From positions 62,001 to 126,000 of the forward strand of contig JAQJVL010000574.1 in NCBI GenBank assembly GCA_035578905.1: a DNA stretch of 64,000 nucleotides, in the 5' to 3' direction. Below, one piece after another: positions 16,490 to 63,299 of this stretch (its first letter is position 1; the number at the start of each line of letters is the position of its first letter). The notes under the pieces were generated by a model. That model made no database searches and was not told the origin of the DNA. It saw nothing but the letters and a program-made list of their open reading frames with translations. The stretch comes from Stictocephala bisonia (taxonomy: Eukaryota > Arthropoda > Insecta > Hemiptera > Membracidae). The position numbers were made by a program, and so were the translations under genes.

Positions 16490-16759
16490 TCAGACAGTTA
16501 CTTCCTCAGTAAACCTACTCTTGTCATCCAAGTTGATAACGATAGCGTGAGTTCTGGCATGTCCCGACCGGAGCTCCGTCTTATCACGATGGTTTGTCAC
16601 GGGTTCCGGCTCCACAGCGTCTGTGCATGCAGGGCTTTCACGATACCCGTCTGCGGCCTCCTGCATGGCGCTAATCTTGGCTGCCAGATGGCGATTACCT
16701 CGCCTCATGTTCGCCTCTTTCAGCAGTTCAAGCTGGGTATATAGCCTTTTGAACTCTTC
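16490..16759 (-). CDS. Receptor exon E13: cytoplasmic coiled coil, C terminus and stop
   Basis: This exon has 89 codons plus a stop, with acceptor TTCTTTTACAG. The helix EEFKRLYTQLELLKEANMRR corresponds to the cytoplasmic coiled coil after TM7 in GPR158/GPR179 (compare the E-L-K-K-L-Y-x-Q-L-E pattern). A charged tail follows, ending in EEVTV. The last three residues V-T-V fit a class II PDZ ligand pattern, which is only a suggestion. The tail is much shorter than the several hundred residues of vertebrate GPR158. Confidence 0.9.
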   Translation of the reverse strand, partial: EEFKRLYTQLELLKEANMRRGNRHLAAKISAMQEAADGYRESPACTDAVEPEPVTNHRDKTELRSGHARTHAIVINLDDKSRFTEEVTV

Positions 16760-22700: not shown

Positions 22701-25700
22701 TTCCCTTTATATATTTGAGGTTTTAATTTTAACATTCAAAAATATTGACGCTGAGGCCAAAATAGGAAATTTCCATTCATACAATACAAGGCATAGGGAG
22801 GCACTATGCTACCCAAATCATAGGACAACAAAATTTGAAAAAGGCCCAGCTTATATGGGATTACATTTTTTAACAAATTGCCACTAAAAATTAAAAAAGA
22901 AAACAACATTTCAAAATTTTAAGATTTAGTAAAGTCCTTTCTTCTTTCGCATGCCTTCTACAGTGTAAAGGATTATCTTAATATGGAAAGTGCCAAGTTT
23001 TGATTGTTTTAAATTGTTTTAATTTATATATAACAGTTTGATCTATTTGACAACATTATTCAATGTATGCTTAAATATATATTTTGAGTGTTCAAAGTTA
23101 CAATTATTTTATACATTCGACTACCTCACATGTCTGTAGTACAAGATTATTAAATATTAATTAATTAATACAGTATTATATTAGTAGTAGTTAAAGTTAA
23201 TTTGACAAGATACAAAATTTGTACAAATAAAATTTATAATTGTAACAAACATTATGTGTTAATAAAGGATTTGATTTGATTTGATAACATTTTAATATCC
23301 AAACCTCAAGGTTGACTTTGAATCTTAATACATAAAAATTATCAGTGTCACGTTATCTCCAAACTTGGTTTCGATAAGCTTACAAAGGGTTTTACACCAT
23401 CACTTTAATTGAACTTTAATAATAATTCAATTACGGACAATTTCTTCATGACATATTTACATTGCAAAACTGTAAATGTCAGTGAACTACTCTTCCTCAG
23501 CTGAATAGTTACATTTAAAATGTGTCATGGTTACCAGAGTGGTAGGCCGCGTGATGACATCCCATTAGCCATTGCGCCCATTCTACTTTATTAGCAGCAC
23601 AAACTATTGGTTCGTTTTAGAACACCACTGTATCAAGCTTAGATTAAAGTAAATTATTATTTATCATCAAACAAATATTAATAATAGTAGTAACACAACT
23701 AATAATAATGTAAACAATAAATAGCATTTAAAAAACGTGTACTGTTCCTTACAGTTATTTTTTTAACCAAGCACTGTGGTGGAAGTTGAACATTTGAAGG
23801 CGAAAGCTATTCACGCGCGTGTAGTAAGGCAGCTCAGTGGTGGAAAGATTCCCCTCTGCCGCTGGAATCTCTCTACATGCTAAATATAACTGGAAGGCCG
23901 TGTTCTAAGTGTCTCAAATATAGAATAAAAACAATGGTTGTTGTATATAATTCGGGTAAAACTCATACAAAAATGTACATTGATGTTACATAGGAAACAG
24001 TAATCTCAGACTTTTAAAAGAACGTGCCTGACCATAACATTCACTTTAATTTGAACCTATAGCTTCTAAGATTTATTTAGTTACTCATTAACAACTGGAA
24101 CAATTTAATTAACTATTTAACATTGTTCATAATTAGCAAATTTTCCTCATACGTTTTAAAATCTTTACCTAAAACCTACGAGTAATAATTAAATTGTTGT
24201 GGCTCTTTTTTATAATTATAAATACTTTTGTATTTCCGTAATTGATAATTTAAACACTTTCCTCTTTTCACAATTTAATTAGTTTTATAGCCTACAATTA
24301 TTAAGCTCAAGACAATTAAGTTATGACAAACTGCTAGCCCCAACCACGGGAACAGAAAAAAAAAATATGATTGAACACAAAACTATTACAATCGATTGAG
24401 GTTAACATGTTTTGAAACCATTTTACAGTACTGGATGTTCTTTTTTAATGTATTTGGTTTCTTGGTTTACATTTCTGTAAAAGCAAAAAATTGGTAATTA
24501 AAATTTACTGTTTTTGGTTCATATAGTAGCTTATAAGAGTGTAGAAAGTTGAAAGTAAAAGAGTATAGTTGAAATTAAATTAGGGGTGAGAGCTAATTTT
24601 ATAAATTATAACAGTATATTATCTTATATAAAGTTGTGTAGGCTTCTTCTTTTATACGGTTCCTAACTAGATATTTTGCTTATAAGCCAAATTGGTTCTT
24701 TACAAATTTCTAAAAAGACTAATTTTTCTCCTTTAAATACGCATTTACTTTAGAAAAATAAAACTTCTGGTTTGTTGTAAAATGTGTTGCGAATAAGTGA
24801 AAGTGCCATTACGTCTATTGTCATAATGGAATATTTTAACAGAACAAACACTGGGGCTGAGTTATGTTTACGCTCTCAAACAAAACAAACACACAAACAA
24901 AGCCAACGTACGTGTTTATTGAACCATGTTATACAACATAATAGATTGTCGCATGTATGTTTTCGTGCACTTACGTGATAAATTCTTAAGTATAAGGACA
25001 GAGTATAATGCAATAAACTAAACAGTTGAAGAAAAAAATTATAGTTAATTTGTAAACATTTAACTAGTAACACTCATTGTTATAAGTGGCGGTTAATGGC
25101 ATCAATTACTATGGTATTTTATTAAGTGTGCTGTGCTGGAAAAAAAAGTTTTTTAATGATTTCTAACTATTCGTAAAAAAAAAAATAATATATTGAAAAT
25201 TTAAGACAAGGAAGAGATTTATTTTACTTTAAAATGTATAGTTTGAATGCACTTTGGTTCATTATGATTTCCTAATTGAATTATGCTCTATAATAAACCT
25301 TGCAAGTTATTATAATTGTGAAATTAGCTTAATAGTTAATGTGGAAACATATAATGAACCCAATAAAAATTGCTTTTCGCCTTTTTATCCTTACTCCATT
25401 TACTACTTGATCTATGCTGGTGTTTTATTCAGACAGAGATAACAGAAGTATGAATGCAGTACAAAGTGAATAACACTGATAATTAAGACTACAATATGAC
25501 ATGAATTATCTGTAACTATGCTTAAATACGGTTGGCTTAGCCACTCGGCCACCAGCTCTCCTCATCTCACCCGACCTAGCACTGATTATCGTCTTTAGTG
25601 GCAGCTTGCTGATATTGAAGGAATGGTCCCACAAGAAATTAGCCAACAAATACGAATGGCAGATGAATATCTTGAGGTCATCAGAAATGTGACTCGCGAT

Positions 25701-28700
25701 AATATGTAGTAGAGCCACCTTGATTTTGATGACAATGCATTCTGAGTATATACTGATGCTAAGGAATAACATCACAAGTGGTATGGCAGAGACGGATTTT
25801 GAGGTCATCAGCAGTACGAAACGGTAACAAGGCTTAGAACAACAAGGGACCAGATGACAGAGAATGGAGGATATCTACCAATGCTGAAGGAACGATCTCA
25901 CAAGTTTATTGCAGAGCCAGGAGTTGAGGTACGACTCTCGATAACAAGGCTTAGAACACCCAGGGACCAGATGTCAAAGATTACAGATTATCATTTTATG
26001 TGACACTGGTAAAACAAATCTATGTGAGTATCACCTTTATGTATAGATGACATACTTACTGATGCTTAAGAACTAGTCCCACGAATGCATGTGTTAGGGG
26101 CAATCCTTATGGTAAGGATTACAGAGTATCTGAGTGACATACATCATCTTCAGTTATAGCTGACATACTTTTTGATGCTGTATAAATGGTCCTACCAATC
26201 CGTGTGACAAACGTGTGCCTTAAGATTATCAGCATTGTGACCCACGACAACATGGGGCGGAGCCACCAGAGTCCTGATGATAAGGATTACAATATATCTG
26301 AGTGAGTATCATCTTTAATTATAGCCGATAAAATTACTTATGCTCAAGAAATGGTCCCACCGATTGTAACAGGTCCACCTAATTGACGATTAAATTAATT
26401 AAATTTAATAAAATACAAATTATTTAAATGAGGAAATAGGTGCATTTAATTTAAACAAATACAGAATATTTAAATAAATTCGGAAATTATAGCAAATTAA
26501 TAGCCAACAAATATAGAGAATTAGGTAGGCAGATTTATTCAATGGTAGTCTTCCGAGACACCTGTGTAAACAAAATTCCAAACATTGCAGACACGAGTGG
26601 ATACACTAGTTCAGTTTTGCGTCTGTCTGGGACTGGGACGAGTCGATCTAAAGGGGAGTCAATGTATCACAGAGTGACAGTCGAGCCCAAGATATATAAA
26701 AGATATTGTTAGTTGATAAAAGGACCACTAGAGGCAGCACCAATCAAGAGCACATGGACAGACCGGAAGTCTTGCCCTGAATCCAAAGCCCTAGTTTCTA
26801 ACGGACAGACAAGGCAAAGGACGCTAGCCTCGCCCATCACTCTTTCACTTCAATTCAGGCTAGGGCCGAGTGCACAAGTCACCGTGGGTGGTCGCTTGAC
26901 CTCAAACCCGAATAATGTAAAAAATGTTTTTATCGAACATATCTTAAATTAATATTTTAAAGTACCGGTAAACTGTCTAAATAAGTATACGATGTCCAAT
27001 TCGGAACAGTCATTACAGTTTTAATAGAACCTCAAGACCACGAGGGGCTTCAACATCAGATGAAGAAAAAACTAATATAAGTTTTAGTTTGTAAATTAGT
27101 TTAATCATGGTTCTAGAAATCAGTATCAAGTAAATAAATTCATTTTTGTACTATTGAAATTCATATATAAATTTAAAAATGTAATAAATTAGCTTTTTCA
27201 ATCTAGAGTCTTATTTATTGTAATTTACAGGCTCACCGATTTACCCATAAAAAACGACCCTGAGATATCTAAATAAATTTAATTTAAGTAAGAATAACTA
27301 ATTAATAAAAAACTTACTCTAATGTAATTCATCAAGTAAGAGAGAGGTTACACGATCCATGTAGTACAGTTACCATTATCAGTGTGATCTACGATGGTAT
27401 TGGCTGGAGCCACCAGAGTTCTGATGACAAGGATTATATAGTATTTGAGCGAGTGTCGTCTTTAGTTATACCTAACGTACTTACTGATGCTGAAGGAATG
27501 GTCCCACCAATCCGTATGGCAGAGGTAGGCCTTGAGGTCATCAGCAGTACGACCTACGATGACATGAGGTGGAGCCACCAGAGTCCTGATGACAAGGAAG
27601 ACAGAGAAGACAGCAACAATAATACCTAGCCTCTTCAGCAGGTCAAGGTCAGTGATCTTCACCGCTTTGGCTGACCTCACACGGAAGATTACTGATATCC
27701 TGATAAAGAAGTCAGATATTACATTAACATTGTTTACATAAAATAACGTATATTACAGTAAACAAGGTAAAACAGGAACTACTAAATTTAATAGAAAGCT
27801 ATTATATTAACTTAAAATTAGTTATATTATATCAAGGGAGATATAGTTCCATGATGTATTCCACTTTGCTTGCCTGTCTGCATGGTAGTTGGAGGGGGAC
27901 CTTTATACAGGGGGGGGACAAAATATTAAAAAGTAAAATACAAAATGGGTTGATTAACTCATTTCATGAAGATAAGATAGTAAACATTTTTTTCAATTAA
28001 ATGCACTCCTGCTGAAAAATAGAGCATTCAATAGTTAAAGTTGCACCCTGAAATGTCATGTTTTTCATAACTTTTTTTAAACACTACCAAAAGTCTTTCA
28101 CTTATGTAAACATGTTGAGGACTTAATTTAAAACTGTAATATATACGTTTCAGATTATTATCTTTTACTGTTTCACGATTATCCAAAGGCCATATTCGTG
28201 TGTTATTTTTATAAATATGTCGCTGTTATCAATAAATAAAAATAATGGTTTTTTTGGGCGTGAAGATGGTGACTCGTACAAAACTATGTTATAAAGAAGT
28301 AAGACTATCAGAAAGGGTCTTATCACACAATATTTAAAATAATAACAGCCAAATGTTTGTTTGCTATTTAGCCACTTTATTGGCACTTAGTGGGTAAAAA
28401 AGTGTAGCCAATTGAATGTGGTTTTAGAAAATTAAAATACAATAGTTTAAAGTTGTGTTATATATTTACAAACATTCTCATATTGTTGGCCATTTTTGCT
28501 TCTCATGACAAATTTAATAAAAAAGTTTCGTGTTTTTCAAAAACAAATTTCCTATTTTTACTAATAGTTGATTTTTCAAGAATGTATAAGAAATTATTTT
28601 GATGCATATATACATATAAACTAAGTGCTAGATTTTAACTATTCATTCTTTTATCCTAAAATGCTATAATTTAACCCTAAATATATAAAACAATTTAATT

Positions 28701-31700
28701 TTATTGAAAAAATGGTCATACATTTGTTTGTTTGGTATAAGTTTGCATTTCTAATGAGACCTTACAAGTTAAAATATCTTTGAACAGAAACAAAGTTATT
28801 GATGAAAAGCTATTATTTTACGTTAGAAGATAGTAATCCCGTTGAGACTATCTATTTTACATTAAATATAATTTAATATTCCATACAAAATGTATTATTT
28901 TAAAGTCAGTAGATAACAATCTGATATCATAGTTTTAATTGTTAAAATTGATAGCTTTAATTTTAAGTCTACGTGATTTTTGTAATACTTTTTTATGGTA
29001 ATAGTGAATCATGTTGGAAATCCAATATTTTCCATTCCACACTATTATGGTATTCCATTCAAGATTGTGGTATTCTTGAATTTTCCAACTACGATAGATT
29101 TTTCATAATTTTTATCAATCCATGAATATAATCTATATGCAAATGAGGTTGGTTTTTACATATTTATTTACTACTGTTTGCATAACATTCTTGAAAATGG
29201 TGAAAAACTAGAATTTTTCATCCACCACCTTAATCTATAATTATCTTGTCGTTGTAATCGTAACAAGCGACCTACGAAACCCCTAATTAATTATTTGTAA
29301 ATTTCTATTATTATGAATTGTATGTATTCTTTCTTCCCTATCTTAAATTTTTCCAGATTTTTCAGCATTCCATTAATAGTTATCAGCCTTTATAAGTACT
29401 TAAATATGATTCAAAACACCAAAAAAATTAATGTTTTCATATTTGCTCAAACTTTTATTTCTAGCAATTGTGATAATGGTGGAATATCATAAGTTTCTTA
29501 TCCGCCATTTTGTAGTACAACTTGTTTATGTTAAAAACGTAACAATCGACTTAAAATTCCCATAGGTACTAATTTTCAATGAAATATGTAATATATTTGT
29601 AGATTAATTCCAATTATTTACTGCTTTTGTTGCAAAAGTATTCAAATCGATTCATCTACTTTCTATTAATCGGAATCGTCCAACAATATTTTACCTGGTT
29701 TATTCTAAGAATATGCATGCTTATATAATTATATATTAGTTTAAGAGTAAAATTCATTTGTTTTCTTACGATAGTATATTAGTTTTTCTTAGCATAATTT
29801 CCTCTTGCATAATGTGCGTGTTATTTTATTTGTAACCCCGTTATATCACAACAATATTGTTAACTATTCAAGGCCGAATGTCTTATAAGCACAAATGATA
29901 TATCAGATTTGAAATGAATTTATTAAAGATTTATATACTATACTCTATTTATAATATAATAAAGATGGCCAGTGCATATATATACAGGTCTATCGTAATA
30001 AGTTCAACGATCTAATCTTATTTACAGCTGAGAAATTTGGACTTATTTAATGATAATAACTGTTAATTTATCTAATAATTTCATACTCTTATTAAAATTC
30101 TAGTTTTTGATTGATATTACAGAGTAGTTTACAAATATATAATTGACTTTGTCAAAAAGAAGTGTTTTAAAAACATTCTCTTTATTTTGTATCAAATAAT
30201 ATAAATTCTCATCAACCCACTTCCATACATATAATTCAAAATATAGTAAATTCAATTACCTCCAAGTTTTGAGCATAAGAGCCCCATAGGTAAGAGAGAA
30301 TCCTATCTCCCTTAACCAAACCCTTAGAGTACAAGTGATGATGTTAGGCCTTGGATACATCACGATCGTCTGAAAATTAAAATTATAAATCATGTATCGA
30401 TCATATATATGTAAACACGAAATGTAATATAACATTTAATATATGTAAAATGTAAACATACTAATTATAAAATAGAATAATTAACATAATACTTATAAAA
30501 CAATAGAAAACATAATAGAAGAATTAACAAATACTTATAAAGAATGTAGAAGTTATTACGGTTTTTTAGTGAAAAGCCAGTAATTATTTTCATTTTTTTA
30601 TATATTACAAGGTACTTTTATTATTCATAGGTAATTGTTTCATTGCAAGGTAAGTATTTCAATTTTGTTAACGTATTAACTATCACAATTTACATCTCAT
30701 AATGTATATCTCTGTGTGTTCTCTATGTTGTACAAATCCTTTACAAATTACTGTATCTACGTATTAAGTAGAGATTAACTGTACATGGTCCATAACTTGG
30801 AACCGTTTTGTTGAACGTAAAAGTCCCGTATGAACGATCCGTCAATACCTGTAGATGGGATGAACCTCGGTATACAATGTTGAATCGGTTCCGAACTGGA
30901 CGACCGTAGATCAGGCATGTGATTGTGGGAAGACTATCTAAACAATGGATCACATAGTTTCAGAGTACCTCTTGCGCTGTTTTACGGAGGGATTAGCTAG
31001 CTTAAATAGAATCAGTGAGGCAGGTCTCGAATGTTTTCATGGATTGGATCTAGCTCTGTGACAGAAGATCACTTTATATTTTTATTTCCATTAATATCTA
31101 TTGACATTTGGAGTTCTTCCAAGTGAAACATAGCTTTTATATAATTTTAAAAATAAAAAAAATGATAGCTGAAAAAATACGCTATATATAATGTAAATTT
31201 ATTTAGATTAACAAATGAAAACAAACATTTTTGAAAATGTTTCTTTTAACTGTCAATGAAGGCATTTCATGACTCGGAAACTGCTCAGCCATATATAATT
31301 CTACCTTCCTCTTATTAAGGAATGTTTTTTAAACTTTTATTTGAGTAAGTTCTTGATTACAATCAGAATGTAGACCCTTTCATTGATTGGAGGCTACCAA
31401 CTACTTAATAGTATTTATTTGTAATCCCTTTATGTTGTTAAGGAACTAACTGAAACAACATATCTAAAGTAGATTGAACATCCTTTACGATGTATTTTTA
31501 AACATATTGGGTCTATAAACCACGAAAAAACCTACAAATCATTGTGAAATAGGCTTGTATAAATAATTACCTAAATATTATTATATTCCAATGTGTAAAA
31601 ATATATTATCAAACTACCTTACGTTAAATATTGCAATTAATATGCATTATATACATGTATAATATAATGTTATTGGGTTTTTATCAGGATTTAATATTAA

Positions 31701-34700
31701 CATACAATTTTAATTAGGAAGACCTATTATAAAAACTGACATAGCATATATATACGTAAATTATTTACAGAATTCATGTTTAATTGCGCACACCATATGG
31801 TTTGCATGCATGATTAGTCCTAAAGTACTCTTATTTATTAGTTTTCATCTAAAACTTAACAAAATTACAATATTATGTTGTTTTAAGTCTAAAAAGTGAA
31901 AAGTAAAAGAACAAGTGTCGATCAAACGTTCAACACATATAACCATTAGTGTTTTCTTTGTTAGTCGAAACCCAGTTATTGTACGTGAGAGGAACTATAC
32001 TTTCCACACAACTCGATAAAACAATTTATGGCAAACACTTTGTGTGCTCTATTTCCCCTTTTATGGTTTCGTTTAAAGTTTGTGGCAATATTCCTTTTGG
32101 GTCGTCATTGTTTTTATTCTTTGAACAAAAAGCACTGCCAAACAGCTAAACGGAATTAAATAAAATTTTACTTTAGGCATTTCTAAAAAAAAGTGTTTTT
32201 TATCTCATCACGGGTTGTTGTACATAGATAGCTTTTTGTTTTAAATGTATATCCATAGAATGATAATATTTTTGTTAATAGGACAAATATAACCTTTAAA
32301 TAAATAAATGTATCTGCCTTAATCATTTTAAGTCAAATATTTTAACTAAAATAATAAACGTCTGTAAAAAGTATATGTATACAACTGAAAAATAAATATA
32401 TTATTAATTTTATTATTATTTAAACATTTTTCTTCAAATATGTTACATTGTAGTTGAATTTCATAACAACTAATTTTTATTACTTAACCATAGATCTGTA
32501 GAGTCGATATTGTTTTTACATTTCTGTATCACCTATACTAGTTATTCTGTAAAATTGTTAAATTATTTTACTTTATTTTTTACTTTACCGTCTACGCCAG
32601 TAGCATTTATACACAAACGATGTTGAGAGACCACGGTATCTATTGTAAATGTAAATGAATCTCCCGGGATTCGAACCCGTGACACCCATCAATGGAAGCA
32701 GATGTGTTTGCTCTATGCTAGCAAGAGGCCCATTATTAGATGCTAATCCACCTTGAACTATACCATGCAAGCCATATATAGTTGAAATGTTTAAAATTTA
32801 TAGATATTCGTAAATTACTCTGTTCGTTAATCGTTGTTGTATCTTTCAATGATACATTCATTACGTCATATATTTTCTTTAACAATTCATTGAGTAAATT
32901 AACTTTAATTCATTTGTACCTTCAAGCCTTAGTAAATATACATTGTATTACTAACATGTAAAAAAAAATTAATCGGACTAAATATAAAAGTGACCAAAAT
33001 ATTCTAGGACATTATAACCTACTAAGTAGCTTGGCTTAGTGATGACAATACTCGTATACTTACTGTGCAATATATAAAGAAGGCACCCAAAGTAATGACT
33101 CTGAGCAGAACTGGACTGGCTGCTCTTACAACCTGTAACAGTATAAATATACTGACCAGCTTGACTTAGTGATCGCGTAACTCGTATATTTACTGTGCAA
33201 TATATAAAGAAGGCACCCAAAGTAATGACTCTGAGCAGATCTGGACCTGCTTCTCTTACAACCTGTAACATTATAAATGTACTGAACAGCTTGTCTTAGT
33301 GATCACCTAACTCGTATACTTACTGTGCAATATATAAAGAAGGCACCCAAAGTAATGACTCTGAGCAGAACTGGACTGGCTGCTCTTACAACCTGTAACA
33401 GTATAAATATACTGACCAGCTTGACTTAGTGATCGCGTAACTCGTATATTTACTGTGCAATATATAAAGAAGGCACCCAAAGTAATGACTCTGAGCAGAT
33501 CTGGACCTGCTTCTCTTACAACCTGTAACAGTATAAATGTACTGAACAGCTTGTCTTAGTGATCACCTAACTTGTATACTTAATTTGCAATATATAAAGA
33601 AGGCACTAAAAAAATGACTCTTAGCAGAACTGGACTGGCTGTTCTTACAACCTGTAACAGTATAAATGTACTGACCAGCTTGACTTAGTGATCGCCTAAC
33701 TCGTATACTTACTGGGAATATATAAAAAAGGCACTCAAAGTAATGACTCTGAGCAGAACTGGACCTGCTTCTCTTACAACCTGTAACAGTATAAATGTAC
33801 TGACCAGCTTGACTTAGTGATCGCCTAACTCGTATACTTACTGGGAATATATAAAAAAGGCACCCAAAGTAATGACTCTGAGCAAAACTGGACTGGCTGC
33901 TCTTACAACCTGTAACAGTATAAATGTACTGACCAGCTTGAATTAGTGATCGCGTAACTCGTATATTTACTGTGAATATATAAAGAAGGCACTCAAAGAA
34001 AAGACTCTGAGCAGATCTGGACCTGCTTCTCTAACAACCTGTAACAGTATAAATGTACTGAACAGCTTGTCTTAGTGATCACCTAACTTGTATACTTAAT
34101 TTGCAATATATAAAGAAGGCACTAAAAAATGACTCTTAGCAGAACTGGACTGGCTGTTCTTACAACCTGTAACAGTATAAATGTACTGAGCAGCTCGGCT
34201 TAGTGATCGCCTAACTCGTATACTTACTGGGAATATATAAAAAAGGCACTCAAAGTAATGACTCTGAGCAGAACTGGACCTGCTTCTCTTACAACCTGTA
34301 ACAGTATAAATGTACTGAGCAGCCTGGCTTAGTGATCGCGTAACTCGTATACTTACTGTGCAATATATAAAGAATGCACCCAAAGTAATGGCTCTGAGCA
34401 GAACTGAACTAGCTACTCTTACAACATATAACAATATAAATGCACTGAGCAGCCTATTCCAGAAGGATCTCGATCTTTATTTTAACTGTCTGGAATAACG
34501 TTAAATCAATAGCAGAATCATACAAAAGTATTGTTAAAAACTGATAATTTCTGCAATAAAACGTTTATTTCATTAGTATGGAATAAATTAAGTAATATAT
34601 TTAGTATAATTTTATTTTCTTAGACTCATATATTAAAAATCCAAACTTATCAAAAATAGTACTAAACATGTCTACTGAAATCCTATAGAAAATATAAACT

Positions 34701-37700
34701 GACACAATATTACTTTGTTAACAAAAGTATTAATTGTAAAAGTGTATCATAAATCAATTGGCAATCTACAATTAACTATCTACATAGTTAACTGCTCCAA
34801 ATGGCCATCCCATCTCTTGGTTCTTCCATTAAAAAAATAATAGATATATTTCATTAGTCTTACCAATACGCAAGTAACAAATGTGTAAGAAATATTAATA
34901 CCCATAGTAGATAGAGTGTAATAATGACACTATTTTGGAATGTCTTTTGTTTCTATCTTAGTAGTAAATGTACAGAAATGTCAATAGTTAATTACTAAGA
35001 AATTTTATCGCATATATATCAAACGACTGACTATTATAATAATGAATGCTAATGTAGGAGATGTCCTAAGTTTGTACATTTACTTAATAAACACAATATT
35101 TTTTAAGGTGCAATGAAAATTGTCGCTCCTCAGACGTTATTATATAACTTCAGAGGAGCTTTAATGTAGGCTAGTAAGTAATGCGATTTCAGTTTTCTGT
35201 TATAATATACGATTTCTGATTTCTGTTCTATTCTACGATTTCTGCTCTGCTCTAATTCTGTCTACCTTCACATGGCCATATTTCCAAGTGAAAAGCACGA
35301 CTACAGGCAGGCAGCAGATGAAGACACAGGACATGATCAGGATTCCTGTCCGCATCACCCAGTTCAAGGACACCACACAAGGACTGTTGTCCTGGCAAGC
35401 TTCACACCCCTCAGCACAGGGAAGGCATATGAACGCATCACTGTTGTTGTACTGGTTCTCTTCATTCTACGAAATACCATTGTAATCGGTAAATTGTGAT
35501 TGTATTTCAATAAATATTCTACATTTCATATAATAATTTTTTTAGTAGGGTGAGTGCAACAGTGAATGACGCTTCATATGAGTTTCCACTTGACTATTAA
35601 ATCGGAAGACAGGCTATTGGATAGGGAATAGTTTAAATGTCTTGCCCGTTTCTCCTGGTTTTACTAAACATAAAACTTAACGTATTATCTTCAAACAGAG
35701 TATTGAAAAATAAAATTTATTGTACATAAATCACATAAATCATCGCACCAGTGAATGACTGACTGTATAGTTAATTATTATTGGTTAGGATTTCGATATT
35801 AAAATGAGTAAAATTGTCAACCTTAACATGTTTTATTTAATATAATATATTACAGTTTCAATCAATAATCAAAAAACTATAAAAATGTAGCTGACCTTGT
35901 TTGTACGATACGCTATAGTGGGGAAGCTTAAGATGAACCGGGTGGAACACTTATTGTGTTTGTGTTACAAACGGACACTTGATACTTTCTGTGTGAACTA
36001 ATGATAGGGAAGATTCAAATTAGGCTCCAACGTTACTTTTAAGATGTTTTGTGATGTTATTTATACGAAAAACGTTGGTAATGTTATATTAAAAAACTTA
36101 ATATGATGTTATTTATACTAAACAGTCATACACTGAGGGGTGATCATTCACTGGTGCAATCACCCTAATTAATATTTAATGAATACTGGGTGAAGCTATT
36201 TAAAAGCCAAAGCAATTTCTTTGATAAACAACTAGTTTTAAATATTTATGAAAATATGAAGTCCAGTTGATTGTGATGACTTTAGATGAACAAACATAGT
36301 TATAATTACTAACTAAGGTATATTTTGCATTATAAAGATTTTTTTCTTTATAGCCGCATATTCAGGACAACAAAAGATTCTACATCTTTACATGGAAACC
36401 GAACCACGTAGTATTGGCCTGATTTTTGTATCTTATAAGCCTGATACTCAATTATCTTCCCCACATAACATCCAGGCCTTGACTACCGCCCAACACGGAC
36501 ACCCCACACTTCTACAGTAGTGTTTACATCGATGACAACTATTTAAATCAATATCAATTATATAATGAAGATTTTACGAACTCATTTATTTACTATACAA
36601 CAATTTTATGTACACAAAAATACTATTAATGTTCTATTTTTTCACAAATTATGTCTTCTTTGAATTTAATATGGAAACTTATTCAATAGGTATTCTTGTA
36701 TTAAAAATTGTATAAAACTACTGGCTGTAGTAAAGAAACAAAAGTTAAAATTACAACGTACAGTTTGATTATAATTTGGTTTATTGCTTTTTGACTTTCA
36801 AGACAATATGGCAATCGTTAAACTAATTATGTCTCTCATTAAGCAAGCGTTTAATGTGTTACACAAAAGACAAATACATAACCCCACTAATGCTATCTAA
36901 GTAGGAGATAGAGCTTAATGTATCTTTAAGAATCTCATTAGTCTAATATATTATATTAATCTATTTACGTGTTGTTTGGAACAGGAATTCTTCGTCTTGG
37001 TTTAATTTTAAATGTTATATAACTCAAAGGGTCATATATTTATATTCGCACAATAAATTATACTTAATACATTGCTAATATAAGACAAAGGACAGTAACA
37101 TTTCTTGGTAATTATTTAACCACAATATCAATATTTACGTCATGTACACTGTTAAATGTTAATTTATTGAAAACTTTTATTACAGTTATATTTGAGCATT
37201 GAAACACAAAATGACTTGAAATTACGGAAATGGTGTTGATAAATAGGATTAAAACCAAAATACACAGATAAGGAGATTTTTGGACGAAAAAGTATTGAGG
37301 TATTTTCAATACTACAAAAATATGTAATACATAATATTGTATTACATATTTTTAAAAGAAGTCTATTTCAAAATATAAATTGCAATGTTATTTGATGAAT
37401 ATTACGAAACTATTAAACCTGTTTTGCTGTAGGAATTTAATTTCCTTGCATTAATAGGTATCAAAGCTACACAATAAGACAAACTAAACCATCATAGTCT
37501 ATTAAGTTTCTCCTTGCAATTAGTATTTCAAGGTTGAACTAAGGGAAGTTATTTACTCTTCAACACATTTATACTGAAATAATACAAATTACTATACAAT
37601 CTTCCACTTGAATAGAGATGTATTATATCAAATCTAGCTTTTAGAGCAGTAAACCTATTCATGTATAAATAATGTTGCTTTGTGATCGTTTGATGTATCT

Positions 37701-48200: not shown

Positions 48201-51200
48201 TTTATATTTTTTTCTATTCAAAAATCTGCTTTTTGTATTGTTAAACATTTTCGTACTTCTAAAGTTCTTTTGTATTTCGTGCTGTGTTTTATTTTTTGTT
48301 AACATTGTGTTACGTGTGTTATAGTTAAGAACACACGACAATGATTGTTAAGAAACAATCAACCGTAGTCTTCAAGCATTTAGGTTTTAGTGTTTTCTTA
48401 AGTTATTATGGGTTAAGAAAAGAAACTAGTCTTAAATGTAGGCTAAGGTAGTAAGTAACACCTGAAGATGACAGGAGTTTTTTACATGTCGAAACGTTGT
48501 GTTTGTTCCTTAAACATTTGAATCATTGGAAATGTTCAAATAATTTTTATCAATCAGTTCTTAGGTATTCAAATATAATTAAATTTAAGTTAACTTTGAA
48601 AGTATTTAGGTTTTAAGTTACTTTATACTGTTTAAAGGAAGCATAATTTTCTGGTAGCAGTCATTTATTTATATAATAAAAAGGTTTGTATTTACATTTG
48701 ATTTATTAAATTTTAACTGAATTTCCCATTCATCGTACTATCTAGGCAGGTAATATCTGGTTTTATTTTATACCATTTTACTGCGGAAGTCTTTCCAATA
48801 ACATTTTCAAAGAGTTTCAAAAGAATGTTAGTAAGTACTATTTGAATACTTAATTTAGTTTATCATCAAAATAAACTTTTACAGTTTAAATATATATAAT
48901 GTATATTATGTATTTTTAATAATCTGACTAAAATACAGGATGAACAGAGATATATTCAAGTTTCTTTATTTATTATTTGTTTTTTATCTTTCTATAAAAG
49001 TTGAACTTTTTAATACAATTCTTTTGAGAAATTATTAAGTGGACTTTCCGTAAATTTTCCACTTCCGGAAAAGTTCTATCCACTAGGCTAGCAGGATGTC
49101 TAATGTTGATAAAACATAATTATACATTATCTCTACAAGAACGGGACCTACCTCTACTAAACTGGTTGTAGTTGTTGATGACATTCTCTGCATGTTTTCG
49201 GGCGATGAAGAACCATTCACTGGTGTTGCTAAGGTATTTGTACTCCACGGCCAGGTCCTTCGCCAGGATCGGTCCTTCAGGCAACCGATAAGCGTAAGGA
49301 CAAAACAGCTGGTAGTCCTTGTACTGAAACTACAAGGACATATTCCTGGTAATCACAGATAAGAATAAGAGCTTATAGCAACAAAATACAAGATATGTTA
49401 CTACTGTAACAATAAGAACCAAGCGAATACGTGTTTAAGCCTCAAAATACACGTTTTTGCATCAATGCTACGAATTTAGGGGTCTTTTTTTAAATGATGA
49501 CTGCCAAGCAACTCTTACAGTATGCTCTATACACCAGGGTAACAATATAATTTGTATGACATAACGATACTAAATTTAGGTTAGGTTAGGTTAGTTTAGG
49601 TTAGGTTAGGTTATGTTAGGTTAGGTTAGATTAGGTTACGTAGAGTGGAATACGTTTACAATGCCACTTGGTGGGACGAAGGTTAGCCACCGACAACTGA
49701 TCCTAAATTTTGTTAGCTTAATATACATGCCTTTTATGGCGTAATATATTATAAACACATAATCTGAAGAGGGAGTATCCTAAATACTGGAATTGCATGT
49801 TTCCATTTTTCATGGGAAGCATTTTAAAAATGATAGTAATTTTATATAAATGGCCTTGATTGTGTACCTATGATGTTAAAAAATAATTATAAGGAATTAT
49901 TTAATGTGCTATTAAATCATAATAAATTATACAGTAATTTTTTTTATAAATTGTATTTATGTTTATAAGAATGTTCCACTATCACTACCAAATAAAATAA
50001 AATAGGTTACTTATTTTATATGATTTATACTTTTTTTAATATGTGATCAAAATTGGTGATATCATTTAAATACATCGTCATAATATGGTTTCTTTACGTT
50101 CAGTGGATGTAAATCTTTCTACAAACAATTTGAACTTATTTAAAATAATACTGCACGTTTATGGGTGGATGGGTGATTCAATACTACTGTACGTGAATGG
50201 TCGTGTGGTATTGACCCTCAGATACACATAAATAGTATTGGTTATAAAGTAAATAAATACACAATTTGAAAGGGAGTATATCCAGTAATTCCCTTAGATC
50301 ATCGAGGTAAAATGTATCAAGTTAGGGAAGTTTTCAAAAGTTTACATGACTTAGGAAATAGCAAAAGAAAATGAATGAAATATACTACAGTAATTATTTA
50401 ATTTAAAACAGTTATATGAACTAGCTAATATTGTTCATAACATTTATAACTAGAAAAATGTTAAAACTAAAATACTACTGGTTATATGTGCAGAAAGTTA
50501 ATGCATACTAATATTTGTATATGAAATCATCATACTTCTTGACACGGAGATTTTCCTAGTCAAAATAAATAATGAAAATGTTAAATGAGTTGCCAAATAA
50601 ACATTGCAGGTGCTGGGTGTAGAGTGCACAACACTACATTGGCAAATATACTGTATTCATATTTTTTATGCTTTTTAATTTTACGTCTCAATATTAAAAT
50701 TATATATTAAAATAAAATAATGCTCTTTCATTTTCAATGTAATGATTATATTCAAATTTCATGTTATGGCTGGTACAGGTTTCATAATTAATAGCCTTGA
50801 ATATATAAATATATTATTTATTGGTCTATAATCAGCTGTCAGTTGGGTCACTGCAGTTGAAATATTAATTTTATTTCTTGATCTTAGAACTTAGGCTTAA
50901 GCGGCCGGTGTCATAACTAGAATCTACAGTTTCCGGTGACAACCGCGTCAAGGTACTATCTACAATATTTACAAGATGACCAGACGTTTCGCCCATACTG
51001 TGATGTGGCATCTTCAGTGGTTTCTCTGAGACTGAAAAAAAACAAAAAAAAACTACAATTATACACAATTAATAAATCTCTAGCATCGCCTAGAGTACAC
51101 AAATACACAGTTATTTTTTTTTTTTTTCTTTTTTCAGTCTCAGAGAAACCACTGAGGATGCCACATCACAGTATGGGCGAAACGTCTGGTCATCTTGTAA

Positions 51201-52477: not shown

Positions 52478-54004
<1,527 letters not shown>

Positions 54005-54173: not shown

Positions 54174-54960
54174 AGTTAAAAATGGCTTTCCAGTCTCGCT
54201 ACGGGGAGTCTAGTAATCAAAGAGACCCCCCGTCCCGTAAAGTAAAAGGAGGAATGGAAGATGGCAACGAGACTTAAATAAATGCAATCTGGAGAAAGTC
54301 TTCACTTGAGTTCAAAATACGCCTTACCCGCTGATGGATGACGATGTTGAAGGCGGTTTTGTGAAGTTCTGTCAGTCTCTGGAAGAAAATGTGATAGAAA
54401 ACTCGCTCTTAAGGTATATTGCATGTGGAAACTTTCCTCTGTGGTTCTCTAAAGAGTTAAAACTGCTAGTTGTAGAGAAAAAACTTCTTCGTAGAATATT
54501 CAAGTGCACACAGAGAGAAGAGGACTACTTTAGATTCTCCGGGTTATGAAGGAGATGCAAGGAGCTTACTAACCAGTGCCACTCATTGTATATGAATCAT
54601 ATAAATGCAGCAATTTCAGAGAACGTGAAAGTGTTCTGGGGTCGCATAAAAAGCCAACGAAAACAATCATAGTTTCCCTTAAAATGCATCTGGATGGGAA
54701 GGTTGTGGAAGATCCATCTAAGGTGTTTAAATTCTTTGCCTGCTTCTTCGCTTCGGTCTACAGGTTGCCGAGAGGTCCTCCCAGTCCATTTCCTCCACTG
54801 TTTGACTTGAACTAGTCATCTAGTTTTGTGAGCTGTATTGAGATGGAGAGTAAGCTGGGGGCCCTTGATCGCAACAAGGGATTCAAGAGCAACGCCGACA
54901 CTAAGGTATCCATTGTCTTGTGGCTGGGAGAACTGATAAAAGTGTATAAGGGAGAGAGAC
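54174..54960 (+). pseudogene. LINE ORF2 fragment between endonuclease and RT domains
   Basis: Shifting plus-strand frames read FPLWFSKELKLLVVEKKLLR near 54435, then RRCKELTNQCHS, then ENVKVFWGRIKSQRK near 54620, and a relic of the KLGALDxNKGF motif near 54850. This is the linker before the RT domain of Jockey-like LINEs. Stops break it and no RT domain follows. Its end merges into the satellite at 54920. Confidence 0.65.
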
Positions 54961-56825
54961 AGGAACACGTAGTACAGCTAACTGACTGATAAGGCTAACT
55001 TACACACTGCACCTCATCCACCTCCACTGACGAGTTACCAGTGCATTGTGGCTATAAGCATTGATAAGAGTGTGAGGTTGGGAGAGGGACCACGTTGTAC
55101 AGCTGACTGGACTGATAATTCTAACTTACACACTGTACCTCATGCACCTCCACTAACGAGTTACCAGTGCATTGTGGCTATGAGTACTGATAAGAGTGTA
55201 AGAGGGAGGGAGAGGGACCACGTTGTACAGCTGACTGGACTGATAGGTCTAACTTACACACTGTACCTCATCCACCTCCACTGACGAGTTACCAGTGCAT
55301 TGTGGCTATGAGTTCTGATAATAGTGTAAGAGGGAGGGAGAGGGACCACGTTGTACAGCTGACTGGACTGATAAGTCTAACTTACACACTGTACCTCATC
55401 CAACTCCACTGACGAGTTACTAGTGCATTGTGGCTATGAGTACTGTTAAGAGTGTAAGAGGAAGGGAGAGGGACCACGTTGTACAGCTGACTGGACTGAT
55501 AGGTCTAACTTACACACTGTACCTCATCCACCTCCACTAACGAGTTACCAGTGCATTGTGGCTATGAGTTCTGATAAGAGTGTAAGAGGGAGGGAGAGAG
55601 ACCACGTTGTACAGCTGACTGGACTGATAAGTCTAACTTACACACTGTACATCATCCATCTCCACTGACGAGTTACCAGTGCATTGTGGCTATGAGTTCT
55701 GATAAGAGTGTAAGAGGGAGGGAGAGAGACCACGTTGTACAGCTGACTGGACTGATAAGTCTAACTTACACACTGCACCTCATCCACCTCCACCAACGAG
55801 TTAATAGTGTATTGTGGCTATGAGTACTGATAAGAGTGTACAAGGGAGAGAGAGGGGAACACGTAGTACAACTGACTGGACTGATAAATCTAACTTACAC
55901 ACTGTACCTCATCCACCTCCACTGACGAGTTACCAGTGCATTTTGGCTATGAGTACTGATAAGAGTGTAAGAGGGAGGGAGAGGGACCACGTTGTACAGC
56001 TGACTGGACTGATAGGTCTAACTTACACACTGTACCTCATCCACCTCCACTGACGAGTTACCAGTGCATTGTGGCTATGAGTTCTGATAATAGTGTAAGA
56101 GGGAGGGAGAGGGACCACGTTGTACAGCTGACTGGACTGATAAGTCTAACTTACACACTGTACCTCATCCAACTCCACTGACGAGTTACCAGTGCATTGT
56201 GGCTATGAGTACTGTTAAGAGTGTAAGAGGAAGGGAGAGGGACCACGTTGTACAGCTGACTGGACTGATAAGTCTAACTTACACACTGTACCTCATCAAC
56301 CTCCACTAACGAGTTACCAGTGCATTGTGGCTATGAGGTCTGATAAGAGTGTAAGAGGGAGGGAGAGAGACCACGTTGTACAGCTGACTGGACTGATAAG
56401 TCTAACTTACACATTGTACCTCATCCACCTCCACTGACGAGTTACCAGTGCATTGTGGCTATGTACTGATAAGAGTGTAAGAGGGAGAGAGAGGGACTAC
56501 GTTGTGCAGCTGACTGGACTAATAAGGCTAACTTACACACTGCACCTCATCCACATCCACCAACGAGTTAATAGTGTATTGTGGCTATGAGTACTGATAG
56601 GAGTGTACAAGGGAGAGCGAGGGGAACACGTAGTACAACTGACTGGACTGATAAATCTAACTTACACACTGTACCTCATCCACCTCCACTGACGAGTTAC
56701 CAGTTCATTGTGGCTATGAGTACTGATAAGAGTGTAAGAGGGAGGGAGAGGGACCACGTTGTACAGCTGACTGGACTGATAAGGCTAACCTACACTCTTC
56801 ACCTCATCCACCTCCACTGATACTG
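54920..56825. repeat. Satellite array, about 15 units of ~128 bp
   Basis: Head-to-tail units carry the landmarks TTGTACAGCTGACTGGACTG, CTTACACACTG, CATCCACCTCCACTGACGAG and TACCAGTGCATTGTGGCTAT. Frames at 55814-56053 and 56581-56820 are nearly identical and 767 bp apart, showing a higher-order repeat of six units. Short open frames (MSTDKSVRGRERDHVVQ) are incidental. The first unit is continuous with the LINE fragment. Confidence 0.93.
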
Positions 56826-59816: not shown

Positions 59817-61424
59817 TTACCTTACCGGTACATTAAAGATAGAAATAAACTCATTCACATTATATATAGCTGTCTCTACTAGTTTATCTCTCAAAATTCG
59901 TTTGAACTTGACCAATTTTTGTTCTTGTTTTAGGTGGTCTGGTAAATTATTAAATAGACGTATTCCAGCCTGTAAGAGGTGTCTTTCAGAAAAAGAAGTT
60001 TTGTGTTTCGGGATTACCAGATTTAGTTTGTTTCGGAGATTATACTTATGCGAATGGGTGGATGTGGTAAAAAGTTGTGGATTTTTTTTGACAAATAAAA
60101 GGGTTTCCAGAATATAGATGGAAGGGAAAGTTAAAATGCCATTCTGTTTGAAAATTTGTTTGCAAGATTCGGTTTTTTTCAGTCTAAAAATTGCCCTGAT
60201 GGCTCTTTTTTGGAGCCTGAATAAGTATTCGGTTCTGGTTGATTGAGCACCCCAAACTGGAACACCATACATCAGGTGAGGATAGATGATACCGTAATAT
60301 ACAGTCAGGAGAAGATTTATGTCTGTAAAAAGGGAAAGCCTTCGCAGGATAAAAATGCCAGAGCTGATGGATAGTGACACCTTTTTGATGTGGCTATGGA
60401 AGTTAAGGTTCTCATCGATTATAATTCCGAGGAATTTCACACTGTCAGACGATTGTACTTGGGCTTCGTCCAGGAAACAAGAAAAACCTACTCTGTCATG
60501 GCTACGTATGGAATATTCCAATAATGTTGTCTTGCTGGGGTTTACTCGAAGACGATTACCACCGAACCATTCAATCAGGCAGTTAGCTTTTACAAACATG
60601 TCTTGCTCTAGCAACTCACTGCAGGGCCCTATCATTGTTAAAGTAGTGTCATCGGCGAACATACATATATCAGCATCGTTGACTCCAAGACTAATGTCAT
60701 TTATGAACAACAAAAAAAGTAATGGCCCGAGGACTGACCCTTGTGGCACGCCTGTCATGGTCAGTAAGTCGTCTGAAAAACAATACTGAAGTGCATTAGA
60801 CGAATCGACAAATGGAATTTTTACTACTTGTCGCCGTCCACACAGGTATGAACGGAACCATTTCAGCGGATTGCCTCTGATTCCCAACTGTTGGAGCTTA
60901 CTCAAAAGAAGCTCATGATCGACCAAGTCGAACGCCTTTGTGAGGTCAATAAAAGCACTTGCGACAAGCAACTTCCTATCCAGAGCATAAACTACTTGGT
61001 TGGTCAAGTGAAACATAGCGTCAAGAGTGGATTTATTTTTTAGGAAGCCAAACTGCTGCTTAAAAAGCACATCGTGATCTAACATAAAACTCATGAGTCT
61101 GGTGTAAACAGCTTTTTCTATGACCTTAGAAAACGTCGAGACTAGAGTTATCGGCCTAAAATTATCGATCTCATCCTTAGACCCCTTTTTATGCAATGGT
61201 AGAACGACTGATGATTTGAGCACCTCAGGAAACTGTCCATTCAGGAATGAATAGTTAATTAAGTGGACTAGTGGGTCAACCAAGACCTCGTAACTATCCC
61301 TCAACAGTTTAGAAGACATACCATCCATTCCTGAAGATGTCTTGACTTTAAGGGATGTGATAATGTTAATAACTTCCTCCCTTGTTACAGGAGTGAGAAA
61401 GAAGGAGTTGGTGATAGACGACAA
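59817..61424 (-). pseudogene. LINE ORF2, reverse transcriptase part
   Basis: An open frame of 535 codons has the RT blocks in order: FRPITLVSTFSK (residues 89-100), FIDLTKAFD with the first catalytic Asp (158-166), GVPQGSVLGPLLFLLFIND (225-243) and the FADDT box (256-260). The thumb and C-terminal segment ends TAIYNVNEFISIFNV. The copy synthesises nothing by itself because the upstream endonuclease is frame-broken and truncated. Confidence 0.9.
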
Positions 61425-61523
61425 TTTGGGTCTGGTAGATGACAGTGGAGAGGGAAACCTGAACGATAACGATCAGCAACACCAGTGAAAAACGAGTTAA
61501 ACATATTGGCCACTACTTGAGGG

Positions 61524-62395: not shown

Positions 62396-63299
62396 CTGCA
62401 CAGCCATAGTATTTTTATGGTATTTTTAGTATGGTTATTATAGTACCATATCCAAGTTAAGGTTAAAATTACATATTTTTATTCTTATGAGAGCTCCTGG
62501 TAATTATATTACTTAAAATACAGAAAATTATCAGTTTCGTAATAATAAAACAACTAGAAAAATGTGTCTTTTTGTTTTTGGCATACCATTAAGATCATGT
62601 TCAGTTATAATTTGTGATCCAATTATTATTATCTTTATTTAAATACATACATTTGGAAATATATAAAAACTTTTGAAGAACAATAAACGTTCCCACCATA
62701 TATAGTCTCAAAATCAATTTGATAAGTGTCAGAAAGTGCCTAGTCGGGAAAATTCAATCTTGGCAGGATCTAATAGTCTGATATTATCCTTTGTAATCCT
62801 GCTAATGTTCCATTCTCTAAGAGCTTCCATTTCTGGAAGGATAATGTTTCGTAGAACAAAGTCTCAAATACAGAAAATTTTGTAATATAATAACAAATAC
62901 TGAGTGTAACTTAATTTTAACAAATGACACATTACATATGGCTAAAACAAGTTGTCCATAGCTGAGTGTAAAAATACTTTAATAACTGTCAATTCTACGA
63001 ATGAAAATTGGTAATCATGAATAGTTTTTATTAAATATCTATAAAATAAGTTTACTAAACTTAAACTAATACCGTGCATTCAATAAGTTTAGTTGATTCG
63101 TACTATATACATACACGAGGCATGTTAAAAAATACATTGACTATTTGAACTTCGTGGGCCCAGTTAGTTCTAAGTAAATCCGCTTATAGTGGCTCTTGGT
63201 AGAGATCAGCTGATTACAACGCAATAAGTAGATTGGATATATCATTATTGGTTGCTTAGCAACAAGGCTATTTATGAAGTGTGTTTTCTTCATGTGGCA
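62396..63299. other. AT-rich stretch between two LINE copies
   Basis: I see no ORF or structured element here. Confidence 0.5.

Follow-up and report, generated by a model that had tools for sequence, protein, structure and literature searches.

Can a receptor gene draw on eleven versions of one exon, or does it have to find a usable copy inside a tandem repeat? The question is raised by a locus of Stictocephala bisonia (contig JAQJVL010000574.1), examined here in a window of 64,000 nt, in which the ICL1/TM2 exon (E7) of a receptor gene is repeated in an array. The first-pass annotation had described this array as a cluster of alternative exons, chosen one at a time. The identity of the gene, the structure and state of the array, and the divergence among its copies are considered in turn.

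The host gene

Thirteen exon pieces, E7 included, are recognised on the minus strand between nt 16490 and 52373. When joined, the exons match the Pfam domains 7tm_3 (PF00003, E 1.8e-45) and GPR158_179_EC (PF22572, E 7.1e-34), and E6-E7-E8 align without gaps to human GPR158 (7ewl_A; query 18–135 against chain residues 364–481, E 4.9e-20). A 7tm_3 core, a GPR158/179 extracellular domain and an E6-E7-E8 segment collinear with human GPR158 together define a GPR158/GPR179-type class C receptor, so that the identity proposed in the first-pass annotation is supported by both the domains and the human alignment. The best match among the 120 listed of 418 homologues is a protein of Homalodisca vitripennis (83% identity over the whole query).

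E6 (nt 35266–35466, minus strand), the 5′ end of which was set by comparison with homologue P0001, encodes the end of the extracellular part and TM1, and finishes at a phase 0 donor (AAG/GTAGAC). E8 (nt 30260–30369, minus strand) supplies the rest of TM2, ECL1 and TM3. The remaining exons are all on the minus strand: five lie on the N-terminal side of E6 (52373–52200, 49329–49152, 43783–43600, 42845–42722 and 40438–40295) and five follow E8 (27699–27485, 21045–20907, 19441–19336, 17991–17794 and 16759–16490, the last including the stop codon). The E6 donor after nt 35266 and the start of E8 at nt 30369 had both been placed correctly in the earlier annotation, and its description of the array exon as ICL1/TM2, phase 0, and 69 nt when full-length was also accurate.

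All 13 recognised exon pieces are open and have plausible splice sites, and the C-terminal 14 residues of the receptor match those of Homalodisca with one exception. The exons other than E7 are open and conserved to the C-terminal end, an indication that the protein is still under selection, and from its sequence the gene looks alive.

Structure of the tandem array

Tandem Repeats Finder (TRF) reports a single array of 11.0 copies at nt 33028–34453, with a period of 129 and a score of 2192. Divided at the start of each exon copy, the minus strand yields 11 units of 128–130 bp, each made up of one E7 copy and a 61-nt intron, in agreement with the eleven consecutive exon-plus-intron units of this size noted previously in the assembly. 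The exon parts span nt 34425–33064 on the minus strand, and the first exon bases of copies c1 to c11 are at nt 34425, 34295, 34166, 34038, 33909, 33780, 33651, 33522, 33392, 33262 and 33132. Each of the ten introns that separate the copies is exactly 61 nt long, and the exon parts range from 67 to 69 nt, so length changes are confined to the exon parts. Five copies have an exon of 69 nt (c1 and c8–c11), five have one of 68 nt (c2 and c4–c7), and that of c3 is 67 nt.

A search for E7 outside the array was made with an ungapped profile derived from the E7 of homologues at a fixed length of 69 nt, which would miss a split exon or one of another length. The homologue profile gives c9 and c11 a score of 91.6. 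Outside the array, the scan detected no stand-alone E7 on the minus strand of the E6–E8 interval, the best 69-nt frame scoring −23.5, and nothing above zero was found with it elsewhere in the window on either strand. On this evidence, the previous statements that no separate copy lies between E6 and E8, and that the gene must use the array, both hold. Homologous tandem exons lacking a constitutive copy, as far as this ungapped scan can detect one, are expected of a mutually exclusive cluster, and the result is a point in favour of that reading.

State of the exon copies

The copies, all on the minus strand, are in very different condition. The first, c1 (nt 34357–34425; 69 nt, VVRVASSVLLRAITLGAFFIYCT), has a GTAAGT donor and an acceptor in which AG has become AT. 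Frame shifts are found in c2 (nt 34228–34295), c4 (nt 33971–34038; donor GTAAAT) and c6 (nt 33713–33780), each of 68 nt, and also at the end of c5 (nt 33842–33909; 68 nt), which has an ancestral-type start. The shortest copy, c3 (nt 34100–34166; 67 nt), carries an in-frame stop and has lost its donor GT (now TT), and the same donor loss is seen in c7 (nt 33584–33651; 68 nt). The last four copies are of 69 nt. Copy c9 (nt 33324–33392) encodes the peptide VVRAASPVLLRVITLGAFFIYCT, referred to here as type A, and has both AG and GTAAGT; the exon of c11 (nt 33064–33132) is identical to it. Copy c8 (nt 33454–33522) encodes VVREAGPDLLRVITLGAFFIYCT, type B, and has a GTAAAT donor following ACA; its exon is identical to that of c10 (nt 33194–33262).

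A splice dinucleotide is therefore missing in three of the 11 copies (the acceptor of c1, and the donors of c3 and c7). Full length, AG and GT occur together in c8–c11, precisely the four copies whose acceptors (33132, 33262, 33392 and 33522) had been singled out in the first-pass annotation, and the other seven are unusable as they stand. In a mutually exclusive cluster every copy should be spliceable and keep the frame, which is the case for only 4/11 here, and these four encode just two peptides, alternating along the array.

Eight copies retain both AG and GT, giving 256 possible inclusion sets. Sixteen of these, one of which includes no copy at all, are in frame and without a stop, and in the other 240 the frame is lost or a stop is present. 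Splicing of E6 straight to E8, skipping all copies, keeps the frame. Such figures could mean that the array harms the gene, with transcripts often skipping every copy or including several, so that the receptor would be largely lost or made in a form without the segment. The frame-keeping skip and the 240 disruptive sets are consistent with this, as are two hymenopteran gene models, isoforms X2 of Mycetomoellerius zeteki and Copidosoma floridanum (P0074 and P0075), in which exactly the 23 residues of E7 are missing. The reading is nevertheless a distinctly improbable one, and the open exons elsewhere in the gene, conserved to the C-terminal end, speak against it. The two X2 models may themselves represent either E7 skipping in other insects or incomplete models.

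Divergence among the units

If the copies were maintained as alternative exons, coding constraint or diversifying selection would be expected in their exon parts. Neither was detected. Variable columns are as frequent in the exon (19/69) as in the intron (18/61; Fisher p 0.85), and the distinct exon changes comprise 14 nonsynonymous and 7 synonymous (67% nonsynonymous, compared with 69–73% expected without selection). This is a coarse test, in which the 21 changes were counted against c11 rather than along a tree, and columns beside deletions are uncertain. Within the limits of such a test and its small numbers, the copies as a set show no sign of being kept or diversified as coding sequence. 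Drift is similar in the exon and intron parts, as would be the case in an exon-bearing minisatellite.

The relationships between units also have a higher-order pattern. Mean identity is greatest between units four apart (0.934), compared with 0.914 at a lag of two and 0.888 between neighbours. Correspondingly, c2–c5 resemble c6–c9, and c8–c9 resemble c10–c11. Growth by block-wise, higher-order copying is usual for minisatellites, and a four-unit block structure of this kind is shared by the present array. The intron parts of c5 and c6 are identical and their exons have five differences, a pattern that suggests exchange between units.

The same comparisons bear on whether the array is an artefact of assembly, the real genome having one or a few copies. 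Assemblers can miscount tandem units, but every pair of units here differs, by 1 to 22 substitutions (exon plus intron), and a higher-order pattern is not what simple copying by an assembler would be expected to produce. Both features argue against a simple assembly error, which is considered very unlikely.

Type A and type B peptides

Type A is the peptide found in Homalodisca vitripennis. Type B differs from it by three substitutions, A4E, S6G and V8D, which were compared with an alignment of 129 homologous proteins (the 120 listed of 418, and 9 from a query with type B), most of which came from the type A query. E7 is present in 127 of them. All 127 have A at position 4 and S at position 6. 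At position 8, where type B has D, the residue is V (90 proteins), A (32) or L (5). The corresponding residues of human GPR158 are A, G and I, so S6G alone does occur in nature. At 68.1, the profile score of type B falls within the range of the homologues (lowest 56.8, 126 scored), which would count against c8 and c10 being unused passengers. Among the 59 passing proteins (61 candidates) listed for the type B query, none has the type B peptide, the closest showing 91% identity over 45 residues.

The donors of the two types were also compared. In the rest of the receptor gene, all 11 donors that were read have G at −1 or +5. The donors of c9 and c11 have +5G, whereas those of c8, c10 and c4 have neither −1G nor +5G. 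Although the sample of donors is small, this suggests that the type B copies are less well recognised by splicing.

A true mutually exclusive cluster would have E6 joined to one of c8–c11, with a regulated choice between a type A and a type B receptor, the two having different ICL1/TM2 segments. Four of the 11 copies have the required length and splice dinucleotides, the two types alternate along the array, and tandem exons often become mutually exclusive (PMC6071210). Weighed against this are the small repertoire of peptides, the departure of type B at positions invariant among 127 homologues, its weak-looking donors, exons without excess constraint over the intron, and the lack of type B among the 59 listed proteins, though no listed protein is closer to this species than 83% identity. 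Nor did any docking site score better than shuffled sequences: when the repeat introns were paired with the flanking introns, no docking/selector pairing surpassed the shuffles in this limited test (10/40 and 7/12 were as good; the controls used 3 of the 11 selectors). The predicted RNA fold of nt 33064–33392 was likewise no better than shuffles (z −0.87; 21/100 as good), and a search of nt 30000–36000 against Rfam gave no match at the gathering score. A regulated cluster is accordingly unlikely.

A still less likely version is that c8–c11 act as a functional A/B switch, with type B used only in some cells or stages and coupling altered by the choice of exon. If true, type B would give a glycine-receptor-like GPCR a Glu and an Asp in ICL1 and at the beginning of TM2, and the gene would have a mutually exclusive exon inside its 7TM core, with the minisatellite as a continuing source of new exon copies. 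The broader claim, that the array is a cluster from which single exons are chosen, is not borne out, given that there are only two peptides, seven unusable copies out of 11, and no excess constraint on the exons. What is left of the alternative TM2 exon is the A/B pair, and its chances are slim.

A conserved exon within a probable minisatellite

The array is probably an exon-bearing minisatellite in which the gene makes use of c11, c9 or both, and the other copies are drifting. The copy structure, the decay pattern, the identical exons of c9 and c11, their match to the conserved peptide, and the open flanking exons are all directly seen. A segment of about 129 bp, made up of the ICL1/TM2 exon (69 nt) and intron sequence (61 nt), would have undergone tandem duplication, after which the array would have expanded and been shuffled in blocks of several units, presumably by unequal exchange or slippage. 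E6 would be spliced to c11, the 3′-most copy, in which every signal is present, or else to c9 with its identical exon; E8 would follow, and the protein would be the same either way; c11 is most likely the exon in use. Decayed copies would be skipped, or would mostly break the frame when included, and the 61-nt introns may hinder the joining of neighbouring copies. The remaining copies would be neutral, having drifted like intron because one good copy suffices. That c8 and c10 keep the frame, acceptor and GT is a point against the minisatellite reading, and drift among unused copies is no proof that these two are unused.

The array is a tandem exon duplication, an already known kind of arrangement, in which homologous copies of an exon lie in a row with adjacent intron (PMC9013439). 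The present locus has the same series of exon copies, each with its neighbouring intron, and differs from the cases covered there in having 11 copies, 7/11 of them unusable, that vary as much as the intron does. With the Dscam1 and Mhc clusters (PMC6071210) it shares an arthropod gene, a large array of homologous exons, and a constitutive copy that was not found. It differs from these in its two intact peptides, its seven unusable copies, and the lack of a docking/selector signal in a limited test. Among the open-access literature matches listed, nothing on point was found concerning mutually exclusive exons, either of GPR158-type receptors or of the core of a GPCR, and no open-access match combined a minisatellite with a tandemly duplicated exon.

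Kringle IV-2 of LPA is an exon-bearing VNTR, the copies of which are joined in frame. The S. bisonia array is similar in having exon and intron within a tandem repeat, but here the joining of more than one copy would add a further TM2 segment or break the frame. Nature provides in this array a clear example of a conserved exon confined to a tandem repeat: from eleven near-identical copies with 61-nt introns between them, the gene must splice a single good one. By itself it does not demonstrate receptor diversity. The locus is of use in studying how arrays of this kind are tolerated, and whether they supply the starting material for mutually exclusive clusters.

Other repeats in the window

Several decayed partial copies of E9, corresponding to its 3′ half, were found in the intron after E9 (nt 25611–27443, minus strand). 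The best of these has 80.7% identity over 114 nt, and the longest holds a stop. A second array identified by TRF, with a 128 bp period and 14.9 copies, is at nt 54918–56820, upstream of the recognised receptor exons, and is of different sequence. The E9 copies and this further array indicate that tandem copying is common in this window, where TRF also reports several arrays of shorter period. A reverse transcriptase ORF (PF00078, E 2.8e-31) occupies nt 59823–61472 on the minus strand, and a further long ORF (nt 62414–61527) may represent its upstream portion. A 1.5-kb CT repeat (nt 52481–54003; TRF unit CTCT, 380.8 copies) lies immediately upstream of the first receptor exon recognised. TTAGG, the usual telomere repeat of arthropods, occurs as 12.6 copies (TRF) at nt 49576–49638, between two recognised receptor exons.
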